A stretch of DNA of 54,010 nt from an uncultured Flavobacteriales bacterium. Its GTDB lineage: Bacteria > Bacteroidota > Bacteroidia > Palsa-965. This document shows positions 25,805-35,776 of the stretch, one piece after another; position 1 is the stretch's first letter; each line of letters starts with the position of its first letter. A model generated the notes under the pieces. It did not search any database, had not been told where the DNA came from, and saw only the letters and a list, made by a program, of their open reading frames with translations. The stretch spans positions 1 through 54,010 of the forward strand of contig CAIQQJ010000037.1 of NCBI GenBank assembly GCA_903873905.1, given 5' to 3'. Both the position numbers and the translations under genes were made by a program.

Positions 25805-25888
25805 TTTGTCAGGCTGAGTGTCCCGGCAAACTGATTTGTTTTTGTTTTATAAAAATTCTCTATTGACGGGATGTATCGAAGCCTACAA
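25805..25888 (-). repeat. Stop-codon-anchored hairpin repeat, copy at cysH 3' end
   Basis: On the minus strand the cysH stop TAG is followed directly by GCTTCGATACATCCCG, about 40 AT-rich nt, then CCGGGACACTCAGCCTGACAAA. CCCG/CGGG can pair. The same block order follows stop codons at 34386 and 35963. Confidence 0.6.
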
Positions 25889-26530
25889 ATGCAATCCACA
25901 TTCCGTTTTCGATCTGTTCACCCATCTTCCTTCTCGTCCTCTTCCCTTTACCGTGCAATGAATGCAACCGACAGATGCAAATCCATGCGCGACCAGTGGG
26001 TGTGGTGGTAGATTATTGAGCAATAAATATTCTTTAGAAGTTTTTTCTTCCATGTCAATAATTGGATAAAACTTGATGATATCTTCTTTCTGTTCAAACA
26101 CATTCATTGATTGCCGATGTGAATTTTGAGTTTGCATCAAACCGGAAACCCAAATTTCAAAACCGGGTTTTATTTTATCAAGGGGCTCCACTTTATTTAT
26201 TGAACAACACAAATCAGGGTCCTTGCTCCAAGTATGATCTTCACGTGTGAATTTATTTTTCCATTCTTCTGGTTGAACATCTATAACATGCAAACCCAAT
26301 AATTCCGTCAGCTGATCTTTGTATTGTAATGTTTCTGCAAAATGATAAGTGGTATCGAGAAATTGAACTGCTTGTGCAGAATTTACTTTATTGAAAAGAT
26401 GCAGAAGAATAGCAGAACTTGTTCCGAACGAAGAAGTAAAAAGCACACGACTGAAATCACCATAGAGTGCGCGAATGCGTTCTTCCGGTGACAAAGTGCG
26501 ATACTTTTCGTTTAGAGAATCTAAGTTCAT
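25883..26530 (-). CDS. cysH: 4Fe-4S adenylylsulfate (APS) reductase type CysH
   Basis: 215 residues. The start ATG 26530 overlaps the upstream stop as ATGA, which decides it over an upstream ATG in the same frame. The PAPS reductase fold has the P-loop-like FTSSFGTSSAILLHLF. A CC pair (DLCCSINKVEPL) and a CIHCTVKGRGREGRW motif give the CC...CxxC set that ligates a [4Fe-4S] cluster in enzymes reducing APS rather than PAPS; the C-terminal KTECGLHL holds the catalytic Cys. The product is sulfite, the substrate of the sulfite reductase in the same operon. Consistent with the lack of any APS kinase here, though ATP sulfurylase is also not in the window. Confidence 0.93.
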   Translation of the reverse strand: MNLDSLNEKYRTLSPEERIRALYGDFSRVLFTSSFGTSSAILLHLFNKVNSAQAVQFLDTTYHFAETLQYKDQLTELLGLHVIDVQPEEWKNKFTREDHTWSKDPDLCCSINKVEPLDKIKPGFEIWVSGLMQTQNSHRQSMNVFEQKEDIIKFYPIIDMEEKTSKEYLLLNNLPPHPLVAHGFASVGCIHCTVKGRGREGRWVNRSKTECGLHL

Positions 26531-28056
26531 TTCAGAAATGTTCCAATTATTGTTTTGAGACTCGTAATGATGATGAGCAAACCTACCATGATTAATCCAT
26601 TGCGAATGGAAATGCGTGTGGATAACCAAATTGAAATTGGAGCAGCAGCCATTCCGCCAATGACAAGTCCGAGAATAATTTGCCAGTGACTAATTCCAAT
26701 CATGAAGAAGAAAGTAATCGTACTGATGCAAGCAACGAAAAATTTTGCCGCATGCGCCGATCCAATTGAATAACGAAGATCGCGTCCTCCGGCAACAAGA
26801 GTTGAAGTTACGATTGGTCCCCAGCCACCACCACCAACAGAATCGAAAAATCCTCCTGCAGCGGCAAGTGGTCCGATGTGTTTTATTTTTTTTCGTTTAG
26901 TGCGAAGAACTCCCAATGCTTTTCGAATGATCAGAATTCCAAGAATCAATGTGTAAAGTGCAATGACCGGCTTCACATAAAGCATGTATGGTTTTAACAA
27001 TGAAATGGTACAAGCTCCAACAATTGCACCAACAGCGCCTGGAATCAACATCGTTCGAAAAAGTTTTACGTTAATGTTTCTATAACGCATGTAAACAAGT
27101 GAAGAAGTTCCTGTAGTGAAAATTTCTGAAGCATGCATACTCGCACTCGCCACCGCAGGCGGAATACCAAACGACATTAAGAATGTTGTCGTCGTAACAC
27201 CGTAGGCCATTCCCATAGAACCATCAATCAACTGTGCAATAAATCCTGCGAGAATCCACAACAAAATGGTGGAATTGATTTGTGAAAACCCATCGCTCGC
27301 CCAACCGCCAATGGTGCGAAAGGGGATATATGTAAATAGTAAATGACCAATGACTAAAAGTGAAAGAACCGAAAGGCCATATAAAATTCCAGCACGAATT
27401 TTTTTCTGACGAAATTTTTTCTTGTCTTGCTTTTCTACAAGAACAGCTGTTGCTTTATTGAGCGCAGAAACTTTTTCCTTGAACGGACCTTTCAAGTGTG
27501 TGCGTAATTCGTTCAGGCTTTCAATGGACAATTGCGTTTCATCTGGAATTGCTTCCGTCAAAACTTCACGCAAACGTTTTGAAAGTGTCGGTGATTTCCC
27601 ATTGGTAGAAATGGCAATTTTCAAGTCGCCTTTTTGCACAACCGAGCCAAGATAAAAATCGCACAAGCCAGGCGTGTCTGCAACATTCACCAATAAATTT
27701 CTTGCATGTGCCTCGTTGGTAATTTCTTCCGAAATCCCAAAATCATTTACAGCAATAAAAACAAGATCAACTTCATCGCAATCTTCAGGTTGAAAATCTC
27801 GCTCGTAAATAACAACATTGGTAAATTCTTTCGAGAGATCAATGATCTCTGGAAAAATCAAAGGGGCAACCAATGTAATTTGTGTGTTCGGACTATTCGT
27901 TAGAACAGATTGTAATTTTTCAAGCGCTACATTTCCACCACCTACAATGAGCAAACGCAATTCTTCTAGCTTCAGAAAAACAGGATACAAACGATTTTCG
28001 TTTTCTGTTTTCTCCGGAACGAGTTCGGGATAATATGGCGTTTCAGAATCACTCAC
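26527..28056 (-). CDS. Fusion of CysG N-terminal (siroheme synthase) domain and TSUP sulfite/sulfate permease
   Basis: 509 residues from GTG 28056, which overlaps the upstream stop; there is no ATG before the membrane part. Residues about 22-215 are the precorrin-2 dehydrogenase/ferrochelatase domain: NRLYPVFLKLEELRLLIVGGGNVALEK (in pieces), LVNVADTPGLCDFYLGS, IAISTNGKSPTLSKRLREVL. After a charged linker, residues about 235-509 form a TauE/SafE (TSUP) domain of about eight helices with IAQLIDGSMGMAYG, its inverted counterpart GGFFDSVGGGGWGPI, and HASEIFTTGTSS. One chain thus couples siroheme formation with sulfur oxyanion transport. Overlaps cysH by 4 nt. Confidence 0.9.
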   Translation of the reverse strand: MSDSETPYYPELVPEKTENENRLYPVFLKLEELRLLIVGGGNVALEKLQSVLTNSPNTQITLVAPLIFPEIIDLSKEFTNVVIYERDFQPEDCDEVDLVFIAVNDFGISEEITNEAHARNLLVNVADTPGLCDFYLGSVVQKGDLKIAISTNGKSPTLSKRLREVLTEAIPDETQLSIESLNELRTHLKGPFKEKVSALNKATAVLVEKQDKKKFRQKKIRAGILYGLSVLSLLVIGHLLFTYIPFRTIGGWASDGFSQINSTILLWILAGFIAQLIDGSMGMAYGVTTTTFLMSFGIPPAVASASMHASEIFTTGTSSLVYMRYRNINVKLFRTMLIPGAVGAIVGACTISLLKPYMLYVKPVIALYTLILGILIIRKALGVLRTKRKKIKHIGPLAAAGGFFDSVGGGGWGPIVTSTLVAGGRDLRYSIGSAHAAKFFVACISTITFFFMIGISHWQIILGLVIGGMAAAPISIWLSTRISIRNGLIMVGLLIIITSLKTIIGTFLK

Positions 28057-28972: not shown

Positions 28973-29746
28973 TTAGTTCAACAAATGGTGCTGCAAAGAT
29001 AATACATAAGCGGCTTGCGGATTTTTTCTAACCACCTCTCCAATTACAATTATGGCTGGCGCACCAATTCCTTCTTGTGCTACCGTTTCAACAATAGTGT
29101 CGATGGTGCCAAGAGCAAGATTTTCAGTTTGCAATGAACCATTTTGGATCACGGCAACAGGCGTATCATTCCGATTGTAAGATTGAAAAATGGAAACGAT
29201 CTCTTTTAATTTTCCAAGACCCATCAAGATTACAACCGTGGCTCCGGATTGTGCGGCAAGTTTTACATCTTCCGGCACCTTCCCTTCAGAATTTTTTCCT
29301 GTAATCACCCAAAAACTTTCACTGATGCCACGATGCGTGACAGGAATTCTCTGCAAGGCAGGAACACCAATTGAACTTGAAATTCCAGGTACCAAATCCG
29401 TTTCGATATTGAAAGTTTCCGCAAAATCCAATTCTTCCGCGCCGCGTCCGAACACAAATGGATCGCCACCTTTCAGACGCACAACATGTCCATGTGTTAA
29501 GGCATAATCCACAAGAAGTTTGTTTATTTCATCTTGAGAAAAAGTGTGCTTTCCATTGCGTTTTCCCACGTAAACTTTTATCGCTTTAAGGGGAACGTAT
29601 TTTAGTAATTCCGGATTCACAAGTGCATCGTAAAGCACAACATCCGCCTCACTGAGCGCATTGATTCCTTTTACAGTTATCAAATCTGGATCGCCGGGAC
29701 CTGCACCGACTAAAGTAATTTTTGGTTCTATGGTTTCGTTTGACAT
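28973..29746 (-). CDS. cobA: Uroporphyrinogen-III C-methyltransferase
   Basis: 257 residues. It transfers two methyl groups from S-adenosylmethionine to uroporphyrinogen III, giving precorrin-2, which the CysG N-terminal domain two genes downstream turns into siroheme. Motifs: LVGAGPGDPDLITVKG (residues 12-27), DVVLYDALVNPELL, YVGKRNGKH, VRLKGGDPFVFGRGAEE, VPGISSSIGVPA, and PVTHRG. Length is typical of single-domain SUMT. It starts 59 nt after the sulfite reductase stop; that gap has word repeats (CTTCGTGACTTGGTGTCTTCG) but no clear terminator. Confidence 0.96.
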   Translation of the reverse strand: MSNETIEPKITLVGAGPGDPDLITVKGINALSEADVVLYDALVNPELLKYVPLKAIKVYVGKRNGKHTFSQDEINKLLVDYALTHGHVVRLKGGDPFVFGRGAEELDFAETFNIETDLVPGISSSIGVPALQRIPVTHRGISESFWVITGKNSEGKVPEDVKLAAQSGATVVILMGLGKLKEIVSIFQSYNRNDTPVAVIQNGSLQTENLALGTIDTIVETVAQEGIGAPAIIVIGEVVRKNPQAAYVLSLQHHLLN

Positions 29747-29805: not shown

Positions 29806-31911
29806 TCAATTTGCATTTGAATGTTTGGTTTTCAAGCTATCAGCTTGTTTCAAAAATTCTTTTGCTTCAATAATATATTTTGATGCAAAATCTTTTGTCG
29901 GCGTGTTTTTGTTGATTTGTAAAACCTTTTCTTTAAATCCAATTTGAAATTCCTTTTCGAAATCAGCAATGACTCCATGTTGGGTATTAACATGAATTCC
30001 TTTTGTGAGCAGCAATGATTTTGCAACATGTATAAAACTGTTGTAAGCTTTATAAACAGCATCCGCAAATCGCTTTTCCGAAAAGTTTTCCTCCGCTGCC
30101 GCAAACGCTTCTTTCGCCTCCAACAAAAGAGTAGCTACCAAATCAATTTTCACACCGGCACATTCACCAACTCCAATTGCACTTGCATATTTCTGTTCCT
30201 GATTCCAATCGATGAATTCGGCATCTTTTACAGTGCCCAAATCAGAAAATGGTTTTAGCAGCAAGTAGAAATAATTTTTTCCAACACGATCATAATAATC
30301 ATTGAAAACTTCTGCCGGTTTTGCATTTGTTCTGAAATCAGAAAGCAAGGTTCTCAATACAGCAGGTGCGCGTTTACTTGGGAACTTCAGAATCTTTTCT
30401 GCAACTCGACCGTTTCCACTTCCAGTAATTCCACCACCAAGCACCAATTGCAAAGCAGGAAGAACAAAATTTCCGGCCTTGATTGAACTGCCATGAAATC
30501 CGATTTGTGCAAGCCCATGTTGACTGCAAGAATTCATGCAGCCGCTAATTTTAATGGACAGATTATTTTCCGCAACCAATTCTGGAAACTCTTCACGAAT
30601 TGTTTTTTCAAATTCAAGAGCAACGCCTGTGCTATTTGAAATAGCAAGATTGCAAGTATCCGTTCCTGGGCAAGAAGCAATATCGGCCAATGCATTTCCT
30701 CCTGTTGTTGCCAAGCCAATTCCATTCAGTTCATTGTAAAGTGCTGGCAAGGCCGATTCAGAAACAAAACGGAGCAAGAAACTTTGTCCGATAGTTACAC
30801 GAACATCATCGGCTGCATACCGTTCAACAACCGTTGCGAGGGATCTTGATTTTTCCGATAAAATATTGCCTAATGAAATTTTGACGTAAACACCAAACCA
30901 ACCATTTTGTTTTTGTGGAAACACATTTGCTTTTTTCCATTCGAGAAAGGCGAGACTGTCGCTCACGCGAAAAGTGGTGAATATTTCCGTGATCTTTTTC
31001 TGTGGCAATGTAATTGTGCTTTCTCCTTCGATCGGAATTTTTATAGATGGCAAAGAAAGTTTTTCCACTTCAACCAATTTCAAAACCTCATCCAATCCAA
31101 TTTGATTGACGAAATATTTGAGACGCGCCTTGAGTCGATTATTGCGTTCTCCAAATCGATCGAATACACGTAGTAATGCCTCTGTAAATGGAATAATTTC
31201 TTCAGCAGGCAAAAATTCATAAGCGGTTTTTGCAAGAAACGCTTGTGCACCAAGCCCACCGCCAATTAGAACTTTGAATCCACGTGTGATTTTCTTATTG
31301 ATGATTTCAACACGCGGAATAAATCCGATATCGTGAATGAAAGTAACGGCAGAATCAGCCTCGGAAGAAGAAAATGCGATTTTTATTTTGCGTGGAAGAT
31401 CTTGTCCTGCTGGATGACGAAGAAAATAATTGTACAATGCATCCGAATAGGGAGTGACATCAAAAGGTTCGTGTAGATCAATTCCGGCAGTTGCGGAAGT
31501 GGTAATGTTTCGAACGGTATTTCCACAAGCTTCGCGAAGTGTGAGATTGTCTTTTTCAATTTCCGCCCACAATTCTGGTGTGCGATCCAAACTCACAAAA
31601 TACAATTGTACATCCTGGCGCGTTGTCAAATGAATGTTTCCAGTAGAAAATTCATCTGTGAGATCAGCTATTTTTCGAATTTGTTTTACGCTGAGTTTTC
31701 CATAAGGAATTTTGATGCGAACCATTTGAACACCTGGCTGACGTTGTCCATAAATTCCACGAGCCAAACGAAGACTGCGGAATTTTTCAGGATCAATTTT
31801 TCCCGTTTCAAAAAGTTGAATTTTTTCATCTAACTTCACGATATCACGTTTTGCAATCGCTGTTATTTCATCACTTGGATAATTTGCAATCGCTGTTCTA
31901 AAAGTTGTCAT
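29806..31911 (-). CDS. Siroheme [4Fe-4S] sulfite/nitrite reductase with C-terminal HEPN domain
   Basis: 701 residues from ATG 31911 (MTTFRTAIANYPSDEI); the frame is open upstream through the terminator hairpin, which excludes earlier starts. Two half-repeats of the NirA/CysI fold: RSLRLARGIYGQRQPGVQMVRIKIPYG and GNIHLTTRQDVQLYFV near the N terminus, and cluster/siroheme ligands C414-x5-C420 (SCPGTDTCN) and C458-x3-C462 (GCMNSCSQHG). Residues about 575-700 form an all-helical HEPN domain (RFADAVYKAYNSFIHVAK, KGIHVNTQHGVIADFEKEF). The six-electron reduction of sulfite to sulfide is the expected job in this operon; nitrite is the alternative substrate. First gene after the tandem attenuators. 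Confidence 0.92.
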   Translation of the reverse strand: MTTFRTAIANYPSDEITAIAKRDIVKLDEKIQLFETGKIDPEKFRSLRLARGIYGQRQPGVQMVRIKIPYGKLSVKQIRKIADLTDEFSTGNIHLTTRQDVQLYFVSLDRTPELWAEIEKDNLTLREACGNTVRNITTSATAGIDLHEPFDVTPYSDALYNYFLRHPAGQDLPRKIKIAFSSSEADSAVTFIHDIGFIPRVEIINKKITRGFKVLIGGGLGAQAFLAKTAYEFLPAEEIIPFTEALLRVFDRFGERNNRLKARLKYFVNQIGLDEVLKLVEVEKLSLPSIKIPIEGESTITLPQKKITEIFTTFRVSDSLAFLEWKKANVFPQKQNGWFGVYVKISLGNILSEKSRSLATVVERYAADDVRVTIGQSFLLRFVSESALPALYNELNGIGLATTGGNALADIASCPGTDTCNLAISNSTGVALEFEKTIREEFPELVAENNLSIKISGCMNSCSQHGLAQIGFHGSSIKAGNFVLPALQLVLGGGITGSGNGRVAEKILKFPSKRAPAVLRTLLSDFRTNAKPAEVFNDYYDRVGKNYFYLLLKPFSDLGTVKDAEFIDWNQEQKYASAIGVGECAGVKIDLVATLLLEAKEAFAAAEENFSEKRFADAVYKAYNSFIHVAKSLLLTKGIHVNTQHGVIADFEKEFQIGFKEKVLQINKNTPTKDFASKYIIEAKEFLKQADSLKTKHSNAN

Positions 31912-31965: not shown

Positions 31966-31997
31966 TAAAAAAGCCCTCCTGTTTTCACGGGAGAGCT
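31966..31997 (-). terminator. Attenuator terminator 1, before the sulfite reductase gene
   Basis: On the minus strand AGCTCTCCCGTG-AAAA-CAGGAGGGCT folds into about ten pairs with two bulged bases and is followed by TTTTTTATT, 55 nt before the reductase ATG. Its 5' arm (TCTCCCG, 31988-31994) is exactly complementary to a segment inside the preceding leader ORF (32037-32043). Confidence 0.85.
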
Positions 31998-32020
31998 TCA
32001 ATCAAAAACCTAAAATCTGG

Positions 32021-32122
32021 TTAAGACGAATACAAATCTCCCGAGTCGCCACGCATGCAGCAACACATACACATGCACATACACATGTGGAAGGAGAAAT
32101 TTTGTTTCGATGTGTTTTTCAT
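32021..32122 (-). CDS. Cys/Met-rich leader peptide 1 (33 residues)
   Basis: ATG 32122 to TAA 32021. The peptide begins MKNTSKQNFSFH, continues with MCMCMCMCCCM (residues 13-23: six Cys and five Met in eleven residues) and ends RGDSGDLYSS. This composition cannot be chance in an AT-rich intergenic region and is placed 24 nt before an intrinsic terminator, as in amino-acid operon leaders. The codons for N-F-S (around 32093-32100) and S-G-D (around 32034-32043) also encode the pairing segments 1 and 2. Translation of the Cys run would be slow when Cys-tRNA is scarce. Not translated evidence, but very strong by architecture. Confidence 0.85.
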   Translation of the reverse strand: MKNTSKQNFSFHMCMCMCMCCCMRGDSGDLYSS

Positions 32123-32138
32123 CTTAATTCAATTTTAT

Positions 32139-32243
32139 TTTGTCAGACTGAGTGTTTTTCTTTTTTGTCAGCCTTCGATACATTCTCCTGCGTCTAACAA
32201 TTAGTCTGACAAAAAAGAAAAATGTACCGAAGTCTGGCAAAAG
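32139..32243. repeat. Rearranged stop-codon-type repeat between the two attenuators
   Basis: Holds the blocks TTTGTCAGACTGAGTGT (32139-32155), TGTCAGCCTTCGATACAT (32166-32183) and TAGTCTGACAAA with TGTACCGAAGTCTGGC (32202-32239), in mixed orientation. The same blocks occur at 25805-25888, 34386-34467 and 35911-35963. Looks like two copies overlapped or inserted into each other. No promoter consensus is visible in it. Confidence 0.55.
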
Positions 32244-32277
32244 AAAAAAGGCCTTCCGATTTACTGGAAAGCCTTTT
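32244..32277 (-). terminator. Attenuator terminator 2
   Basis: On the minus strand AAAAGGCTTTCC-AGTAAATC-GGAAGGCCTTTT gives an 8-bp GC-rich core (one G-T pair) plus four A-T pairs, and the T run continues to TTTTTTC. It lies 23 nt after leader peptide 2. Confidence 0.88.
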
Positions 32278-32365
32278 CAGATATTATTGCTTTTCCAGAT
32301 CACGACAATGCGCAGCACATCATGCTGTTCATCATTGTTGTTGTATGGAAAAAATTTGTTTTCAT
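32246..32365 (-). promoter_or_regulatory. Transcription attenuator unit 2
   Basis: Segment 1: TTTTCCA (32346-32352) in the F-F-H codons. Segment 2: CTGGAAAAGC (32289-32298), starting 2 nt after the stop codon. Segment 3: GCTTTCCAG (32264-32272), 5' arm of the terminator. Segment 4: the 3' arm. 1:2 is 7 bp; 2:3 is 9 bp with one bulged A; 3:4 is the terminator. The arrangement is the same as unit 1. Confidence 0.78.
32300..32365 (-). CDS. Cys/Met-rich leader peptide 2 (21 residues)
   Basis: ATG 32365 to TGA 32300. The peptide is MKTNFFHTTT followed by MMNSMMCCALS: four Met and two adjacent Cys in the second half. It begins 17 nt after a consensus -7 box, so the mRNA leader is very short. Shared features with leader 1 are the MK start, the N-F-x-F/H stretch that encodes segment 1, the Met/Cys run, and the terminator that follows. 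The stop codon lies just before pairing segment 2, so a ribosome finishing the peptide would mask that segment. Confidence 0.82.
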   Translation of the reverse strand: MKTNFFHTTTMMNSMMCCALS

Positions 32366-32381
32366 GTCGTAATTGATGGCG

Positions 32382-32414
32382 CAAATATAGATGGCTTTTT
32401 TGATTGCTTCCAAA
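32382..32414 (-). promoter_or_regulatory. Consensus promoter of the sulfur operon
   Basis: On the minus strand TTTG (32414-32411), a 21-nt spacer, and TATATTTG (32389-32382), a full match to the Bacteroidota promoter. The expected start of transcription is about 10 nt before leader peptide 2. It is the only consensus promoter seen before the reductase gene. Confidence 0.8.
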
Positions 32415-35308: not shown

Positions 35309-35776
35309 ATTATACCATTAGCCAATATGTTTCAGTCTGTTGTTTGCATAGTGCATAGGAATTATCATAGGTAATTCTTGAATAAATCTATTAATCAGGA
35401 AACAGGAAATTCTAAGGAACAAACAACAGATCGCCCCTACGGCGCTGATTATTATTTGCGAGAACAAATAATTCCAGAACTATTTTCGATCACCGCAATT
35501 TCAAATAAAAAAATCGCTCAAAAAACCTGACGCACCTTATGTCGTCCCTACGGGACTTTTTATTTTTTTTGTTTTAGGTTTTACCAATATGTCATCCCTA
35601 CGGGTTTGAAAAAATCTTAAAATCCCGCAGGGATGACATATCGGTAAAAAAGAATCTAATGGGAAAATAAAAAGTCCCGTAGGGACGACATGTTGTTCGT
35701 ACCTAAAAACTTGTTGGGAAATCGGATTCCTATGAGATTGGATAATGACCTATTTAATATTAGCTAATGGTATTAT
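35309..35776. repeat. Inverted duplicate bounding a gene-free accessory stretch
   Basis: ATTATACCATTAGCCAATAT (35309-35328) is repeated inverted at 35757-35776 with two mismatches. Both copies are followed, 22-25 nt inwards, by CATAGGAAT. Between them lies no plausible gene: a small hairpin (ATTATTTG/CAAATAAT near 35450), and the nested hairpin at 35539-35691. Confidence 0.5.
35539..35691. repeat. Nested double hairpin element, 153 nt
   Basis: Outer arms 35539-35566 and 35664-35691 are perfect 28-bp inverted repeats (starting ATGTCGTCCCTACGGG). Inner arms 35581-35604 and 35624-35647 are 24 bp with two mismatches and share the same core, ATGTCATCCCTACGGG. So four copies of the CCCTACGGG core, two in each orientation. 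Such CCCGTAGGGA palindromes are widespread in Bacteroidota intergenic DNA. Not coding. Confidence 0.8.

Follow-up and report, generated by a model that had tools for sequence, protein, structure and literature searches.

A conserved leader of attenuator design, probably the first of two cysteine-reading gates in series, ahead of a sulfite-reductase operon of Bacteroidota

Leader ORFs of the polycysteine kind have reportedly been described in mycobacteria, by Canestrari in 2020. According to the available portion of PMC1262725, such mycobacterial ORFs have runs of Cys codons near their stop and lie before cys operons, as do the leaders that we describe here; they belong to another phylum, and that portion reports no conserved terminator hairpin for them. 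The uORFC-8-2 motif, located before cysS in Rhodobacterales, is predicted to work by ribosome-mediated attenuation (PMC8632094). As it appears in the sections available of that source, it has in common with our locus two adjacent Cys codons, an intrinsic terminator and the prediction of attenuation, but it is alphaproteobacterial, precedes a cysteinyl-tRNA synthetase gene, consists of one unit, and is described with no sulfate-reduction operon. In Salmonella mgtCBR, according to an excerpt of PMC3641672, a single leader contains two ORFs, both of which act on elongation. The excerpt assigns them distinct signals (ATP and proline) and mechanisms unlike intrinsic terminators, whereas here both units have Cys codons and intrinsic terminators. 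Within the phylum, there are clues to leader-peptide attenuation before amino-acid operons in Flavobacterium psychrophilum (PMC9723704); these leaders resemble ours in phylum and in their position upstream of amino-acid operons, and differ in that the extract available mentions neither a cysteine case nor tandem pairs. The literature that we searched contained no Cys attenuator in Bacteroidota and no tandem leader peptides reading the same signal, although the survey of Lopatovskaya 2010 may list Bacteroidota cases. As far as this literature goes, the Cys attenuator proposed below is new for the sulfate-assimilation pathway and for the phylum, and its main interest is that it would be the first of two serial gates. 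With it, Bacteroidota would gain a system for sensing cysteine in sulfate assimilation that is defined and can be tested.

The locus lies in a contig of an uncultured Flavobacteriales bacterium, and the window is the whole stretch of 54,010 nt that was analysed; coordinates below refer to it, and all leader and operon features are on the minus strand. The upstream unit, unit 2, was read from the sequence as a leader ORF of 21 codons (MKTNFFHTTTMMNSMMCCALS, 32300..32365), running from an ATG at 32365-32363 to a TGA at 32302-32300, with two putative regulatory Cys codons (TGC 32317-32315 and TGC 32314-32312) five and four codons ahead of the stop. Segment 1, a candidate protector (TTTTCCA, 32346..32352), falls within the codons for F-F-H. 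Segment 2 (CTGGAAAAGC, 32289..32298), which forms the antiterminator 5' arm, starts at the second base past the stop, and segment 3, the antiterminator 3' arm (GCTTTCCAG, 32264..32272), is within the 5' arm of an intrinsic terminator hairpin followed by a T-rich tract (32245..32278; 13 pairs, about -17.6 to -17.8 kcal/mol). The alternative pairings are mutually exclusive: 1:2 (7-8 bp), 2:3 (9 bp with one bulged A) and 3:4. A previous sequence-only reading of this DNA had described the unit at 32246-32365, with the positions of segments 1 to 3 and the spacing of the stop and Cys codons, all correct to the base, and its pairing counts (7 bp for 1:2, and 9 bp with one bulge for 2:3) agree with ours. 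The leader (131 nt) has a folding energy of -37.2 kcal/mol, compared to -22.2 +/- 3.4 for shuffles, none of 200 being as good. The antiterminator is weak (-8.5 kcal/mol vs -17.8 for the terminator); in the window unit taken by itself, its energy is matched by 7 of 100 shuffles (z -1.9, borderline), and 3% of shuffles have a protector pairing 1:2 as good. Rfam covariance models (riboswitch, T-box, known leader) gave no match in the window at the gathering score.

The anatomy of E. coli trpL is the same in several respects: a short ORF, two adjacent regulatory codons, three codons from the last one to the stop, a segment 2 located past the stop, and the pairings 1:2, 2:3 and 3:4. They differ in the residue (Trp there, Cys here), in the distance from stop to terminator (42 nt there, 21 nt in unit 2), and in the Bacteroidota promoter and putative second serial attenuator found here. 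When Cys is ample the ribosome would reach the unit 2 stop and cover segment 2, leaving segments 3 and 4 to form the terminator, at which RNA polymerase would stop. When Cys is scarce, the ribosome would stall at the two Cys codons, and segment 2 would pair with segment 3 once this is made; the terminator of unit 2 would be averted and the polymerase would proceed to a downstream unit, unit 1, where the same decision would be repeated. We consider it very probable that unit 2 senses charged tRNA-Cys (and perhaps tRNA-Met) as a ribosome-mediated transcription attenuator, the first of two in series controlling the sulfite-reductase/siroheme/CysH operon.

To model the ribosome, we hid the RNA as far as 12 nt past the start of the A-site codon, and computed how probable it is for the terminator 5' arm to be paired with RNA ahead of it while the 3' arm (arm 4) is still unmade, excluding pairs inside the terminator arm itself. 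This nascent pairing in unit 2 was 0.57 with the ribosome at either Cys codon and 0.02 with the ribosome at the stop. The positive control, trpL, behaved alike by the same measure, with 0.62 stalled and 0.00 at the stop. Both ribosome positions had been foreseen in the sequence-only reading, in which a ribosome finishing the peptide sits on segment 2 (the mask at the stop covers the RNA to 32290) and one stalled at the Cys codons leaves it free. That reading also expected the winning structure to switch upon folding, and this did not occur: in the full-length equilibrium fold, the terminator of unit 2 had a probability of 0.97 in every ribosome state. The terminator of trpL likewise won in every state (0.92-0.95), so that the equilibrium fold does not discriminate, and its outcome for unit 2 is no argument against attenuation. 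Since the terminator wins at equilibrium whatever the ribosome state, the switch must be kinetic, decided during transcription. Taken alone, unit 2 is borderline in this measure as well: when its own upstream segment was shuffled 60 times, 7% of the shuffles gave a stall-stop difference as large.

We searched the upstream regions of sulfite-reductase homologues in relatives (matches in 27 of 79 genomes), in the class (93 of 395) and in named genomes (best 80 of 589 relatives). After removal of identical regions and of those shorter than 300 nt, 119 were kept, among which near-duplicates remain (e.g., L017/L041 and L023/L107). Units were defined as an ORF plus terminator with at least three Cys in six codons. 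There were 65 such units on the gene strand, compared to one on the opposite strand and three in five-fold shuffles, and 17 of the 119 regions had two or more (0/119 on the opposite strand, 0/595 in shuffled copies). When units dense in each residue were counted on the gene strand and on the reverse, Cys (65 vs 1) and Met (42 vs 0) were the only ones far raised, while Leu (35 vs 13), Thr (20 vs 7) and Asn (13 vs 2) were mildly so. About half of the regions had no unit; in some, such as L120 and L125, the leader may fall outside the fetched stretch. Several Pedobacter have one unit immediately ahead of the gene (e.g., L069, L070 and L074). Out of 84 units, 77 were analysed (17 upstream tandem, 17 downstream tandem and 43 single); those dropped were two each in L038 and L042 (from the genomes of L013 and L014), the first ORF of L098, L054 and L129. 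A lax rule found a unit in 15 of 46 additional genomes of the class, with one more clear tandem (L160), found after, and outside, the 17-locus counts; L198, which contains unread bases, is a possible further tandem locus, and L193 is doubtful. A search of viral contigs produced one locus, which was left out of the analysis.

Across these homologues, the antiterminator energy had a mean z of -2.83, and in 58 of 77 units no more than 5 of 100 shuffles reached the unit's own value; in L056, no antiterminator was found. Over the 77 units, nascent pairing fell on average from 0.72 (ribosome at the first Cys codon) to 0.16 (ribosome at the stop). It was higher on stalling than at the stop in 76/77 units for the first Cys and in 73/77 for the last Cys, and with the last Cys stalled it was below 0.5 in 8/77. 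Because masking more RNA by itself leaves less to pair, the stall-to-stop drop was repeated on shuffles, and the observed values were larger in upstream (0.52 vs 0.08), downstream (0.66 vs 0.27) and single units (0.54 vs 0.18). Covariation of 2:3 in fixed columns was seen in 42 downstream-type units (209/267 cells; 0/1000 shuffles as high), and not significant in the 17 upstream units (93/128 cells; 63/1000 shuffles as high), where we think that the segments are misaligned, or out of register. This test was replaced by one comparing each unit's own 2:3 duplex with swapped ones. Own duplexes were better in upstream (-14.9 vs -12.0; 0/5000 permutations as low), downstream (-15.9 vs -13.6; 1/5000) and single units (-12.3 vs -9.5; 0/5000). 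Terminator pairing was conserved in both groups (0/1000 shuffles). The protector pairing 1:2 was conserved in the 17 upstream units, with own duplexes at -10.25 vs -8.16 for swapped ones (0/5000 swaps as low) and a place among the best 5% of own shuffles in 10/17; it found no such support in downstream units (1859/5000 swaps as low) or single units (263/5000). The four-segment layout first suggested for unit 2 is borne out in the sequence, and the mechanism finds support in the comparison with homologues, which points to a conserved attenuator of classic design.

The putative regulon extends beyond the sulfite reductase. In the window's own genome, an upstream-type Cys unit (MNNNLHISITRYSCKNCCWMCM), with the TATATTTG promoter motif and a terminator, precedes cysC-cysD-cysN (L139; leader ORF at G000:C97:66381-66449). 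We regard it as a weaker example, since the stop mask fails to abolish its pairing. Of seven other genomes, five had a CysD-like match, and three of those had the leader (G002, G003 and G007). As to the signal, the share of Met near the Cys cluster is 23% in upstream units, 28% in downstream units and 18% in single units, vs 5.1% in the rest of these peptides. In the related loci L009-L134, codons for Met are strongly enriched around those for Cys. The leaders may therefore read both sulfur amino acids, and it is conceivable, although on balance rather unlikely, that methionine or the two together are sensed and not cysteine alone: this would agree with the Met content, with the 42 Met-dense units on the forward strand against none on the reverse, and with the homoserine dehydrogenase gene that comes after the operon. 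The units were chosen for Cys, however, which makes Cys constant among them and leaves Met unseparated from it, and slippage in ATG TGY repeats could be an alternative source of the Met enrichment. Both units of a pair are alike in Cys and Met content, and so they probably read the same signal.

The next Cys unit downstream of unit 2, which we take to be the unit 1 of the sequence-only reading, has its leader ORF (MKNTSKQNFSFHMCMCMCMCCCMRGDSGDLYSS) at 32021..32122, a segment 2 at 32028..32043, inside the ORF past the Cys codons (-20 to -5 from the stop), and an intrinsic terminator hairpin at 31970..31999 (-16.2 kcal/mol). Its antiterminator energy is good (2/100 shuffles match); its stall-stop difference is unremarkable, being reached by 38% of its own shuffles. 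The first structural gene (29806..31911, ATG at 31911) encodes a nitrite/sulfite-reductase-like hemoprotein of 701 aa with NIR_SIR and NIR_SIR_ferr domains. A C-terminal HEPN match was also seen in this protein, at residues 624-691 of a longer frame. The operon continues with a uroporphyrinogen-III C-methyltransferase for siroheme synthesis (28973..29746), a DUF2490 gene, a gene with CysG N-terminal (siroheme) and TauE-like sulfite exporter domains (26527..28056) and a CysH-like phosphoadenylyl-sulfate reductase (25883..26629); a homoserine dehydrogenase gene comes next. Both Cys leaders hence precede sulfate-reduction and siroheme genes.

Before unit 2 we identified a candidate promoter with a -33 element, TTG (32411..32413, recognized by sequence), 21 nt ahead of a -7 element of the TAnnTTTG type (TATATTTG, 32382..32389). 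The latter is backed by a genome-wide pattern count, with TAWWTTTG-N15-45-ATGAA at 176 places in the genome vs 38 for the reversed control pattern, and by the tandem loci, as given below. We take the TTG / TAnnTTTG consensus to be the Bacteroidota promoter form. A sigma-70 promoter scan gave no excess (40 vs 38.8 expected), which agrees with what one would expect in Bacteroidota. A perfect TAnnTTTG within 70 nt before the ATG was present in 15/17 upstream units and 27/43 single units, but in 0/17 downstream units, compared to 2.5% of random positions.

One promoter apparently drives both Cys leader units of the window. We judge it improbable that the two units are not in series, with separate promoters and unit 2 feeding nothing but a short RNA. 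The window units are 122 nt apart, the repeat between them could bring a promoter, and 15 nt ahead of the unit 1 ATG stands TAAAATTG, which matches TAnnTTTG with one mismatch; yet the perfect motif is absent from every downstream unit, and in 13/17 tandem loci the distance from the upstream terminator to the following ORF start is 6-64 nt, which is mostly too close for a separate promoter. The exceptions are L009 (122 nt), L014 (128 nt), L123 (90 nt) and L025, whose longest ORF begins inside the upstream unit. Since unit 2 is half of a tandem pair that we place in series, its role for the operon would differ from that of a lone attenuator.

A tandem of two switches for the same signal, of different designs, recurs in related families. 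The tandem loci belong to at least seven families (f1, f10, f16, f19, f21, f25 and f44), plus the named record L078. In a FastTree phylogeny of the sulfite reductases (117 rows), 14 of the 17 tandem loci fall in one 19-row group and three elsewhere, and the trait requires 8 changes, vs 16.1 for shuffled labels. The five remaining rows of the 19-row group count as single, in two of which (L120 and L125) the fetched stretch was too short. In all 17 loci the upstream unit has fewer codons past the last clustered Cys (0-6) than the downstream unit (8-17). Segment 2 is mostly past the stop in upstream units (median +6 to +18, the stop's first base being the reference), and inside the ORF in downstream units (median -24 to -10), where the stop is nearly fixed at 16-23 nt ahead of the terminator. 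The protector of the upstream units makes sense in this arrangement, because a segment 2 past the stop becomes accessible when the ribosome departs, and so has to be covered; in downstream units, being inside the ORF, it is covered by translation. In ribosome-free folding of these loci, pairing was not clearly lower in upstream units. Unit 1 would follow the second design, with a long tail past the Cys codons, segment 2 in the ORF and no conserved protector.

As both gates must be passed, one would expect multiplied leaks and a steeper response. We are somewhat inclined to view the sulfate-reduction operon of Bacteroidota as governed by a two-stage decoder of one Cys(/Met) signal, in which a protector-bearing, stop-adjacent gate would be followed by a protector-less, long-tailed one, with leak multiplied down and threshold sharpened, while single units would guard other sulfur operons. 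The tandem is a natural experiment for asking why a cell would place same-signal attenuators one after the other, with two different ribosome geometries.

Two further explanations bear on attenuation itself. The control could be mainly translational, or act via Rho, as proposed for mycobacterial Cys leaders; the Cys leader ORFs without terminator hairpins in Actinobacteria, as presented in the part of PMC1262725 available, would speak for this. We find it very improbable here: a hairpin and a T tract follow every unit (by construction of the search), and the terminator pairing is itself conserved. Just as improbable is that the ORFs encode functional Cys-rich small proteins (e.g., metal-binding) before ordinary terminators, with the alternative pairing incidental, since, even though such small proteins exist in general and the ORFs are flanked by a promoter motif and a terminator, the peptides are hardly alike beyond the Cys/Met cluster, the units precede sulfite reductase and cysC-cysD-cysN, and the better own 2:3 pairing in all three groups would be unneeded for a protein role.

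Between units 2 and 1, the window has a dispersed repeat of about 100 bp (32134..32235, minus strand), which is not part of the proposed mechanism. Eight other long matches to it, 77-91% identical, occur in this genome, and eight copies were aligned. The repeat contains interleaved inverted arms (CTTCGGTACATT..TTTCTTTTTTGTCAG..AATGTATCGAAG..CTGACAAAAAAGAAA), so that two exclusive folds could be possible. Elsewhere in the window, each strand carries a copy of the hairpin GTCCCTACGGGAC with TTTTTATTTT after it, at 35544-35556 (+) and 35674-35686 (-), about 130 bp apart, and the pair resembles the ends of a small mobile element.
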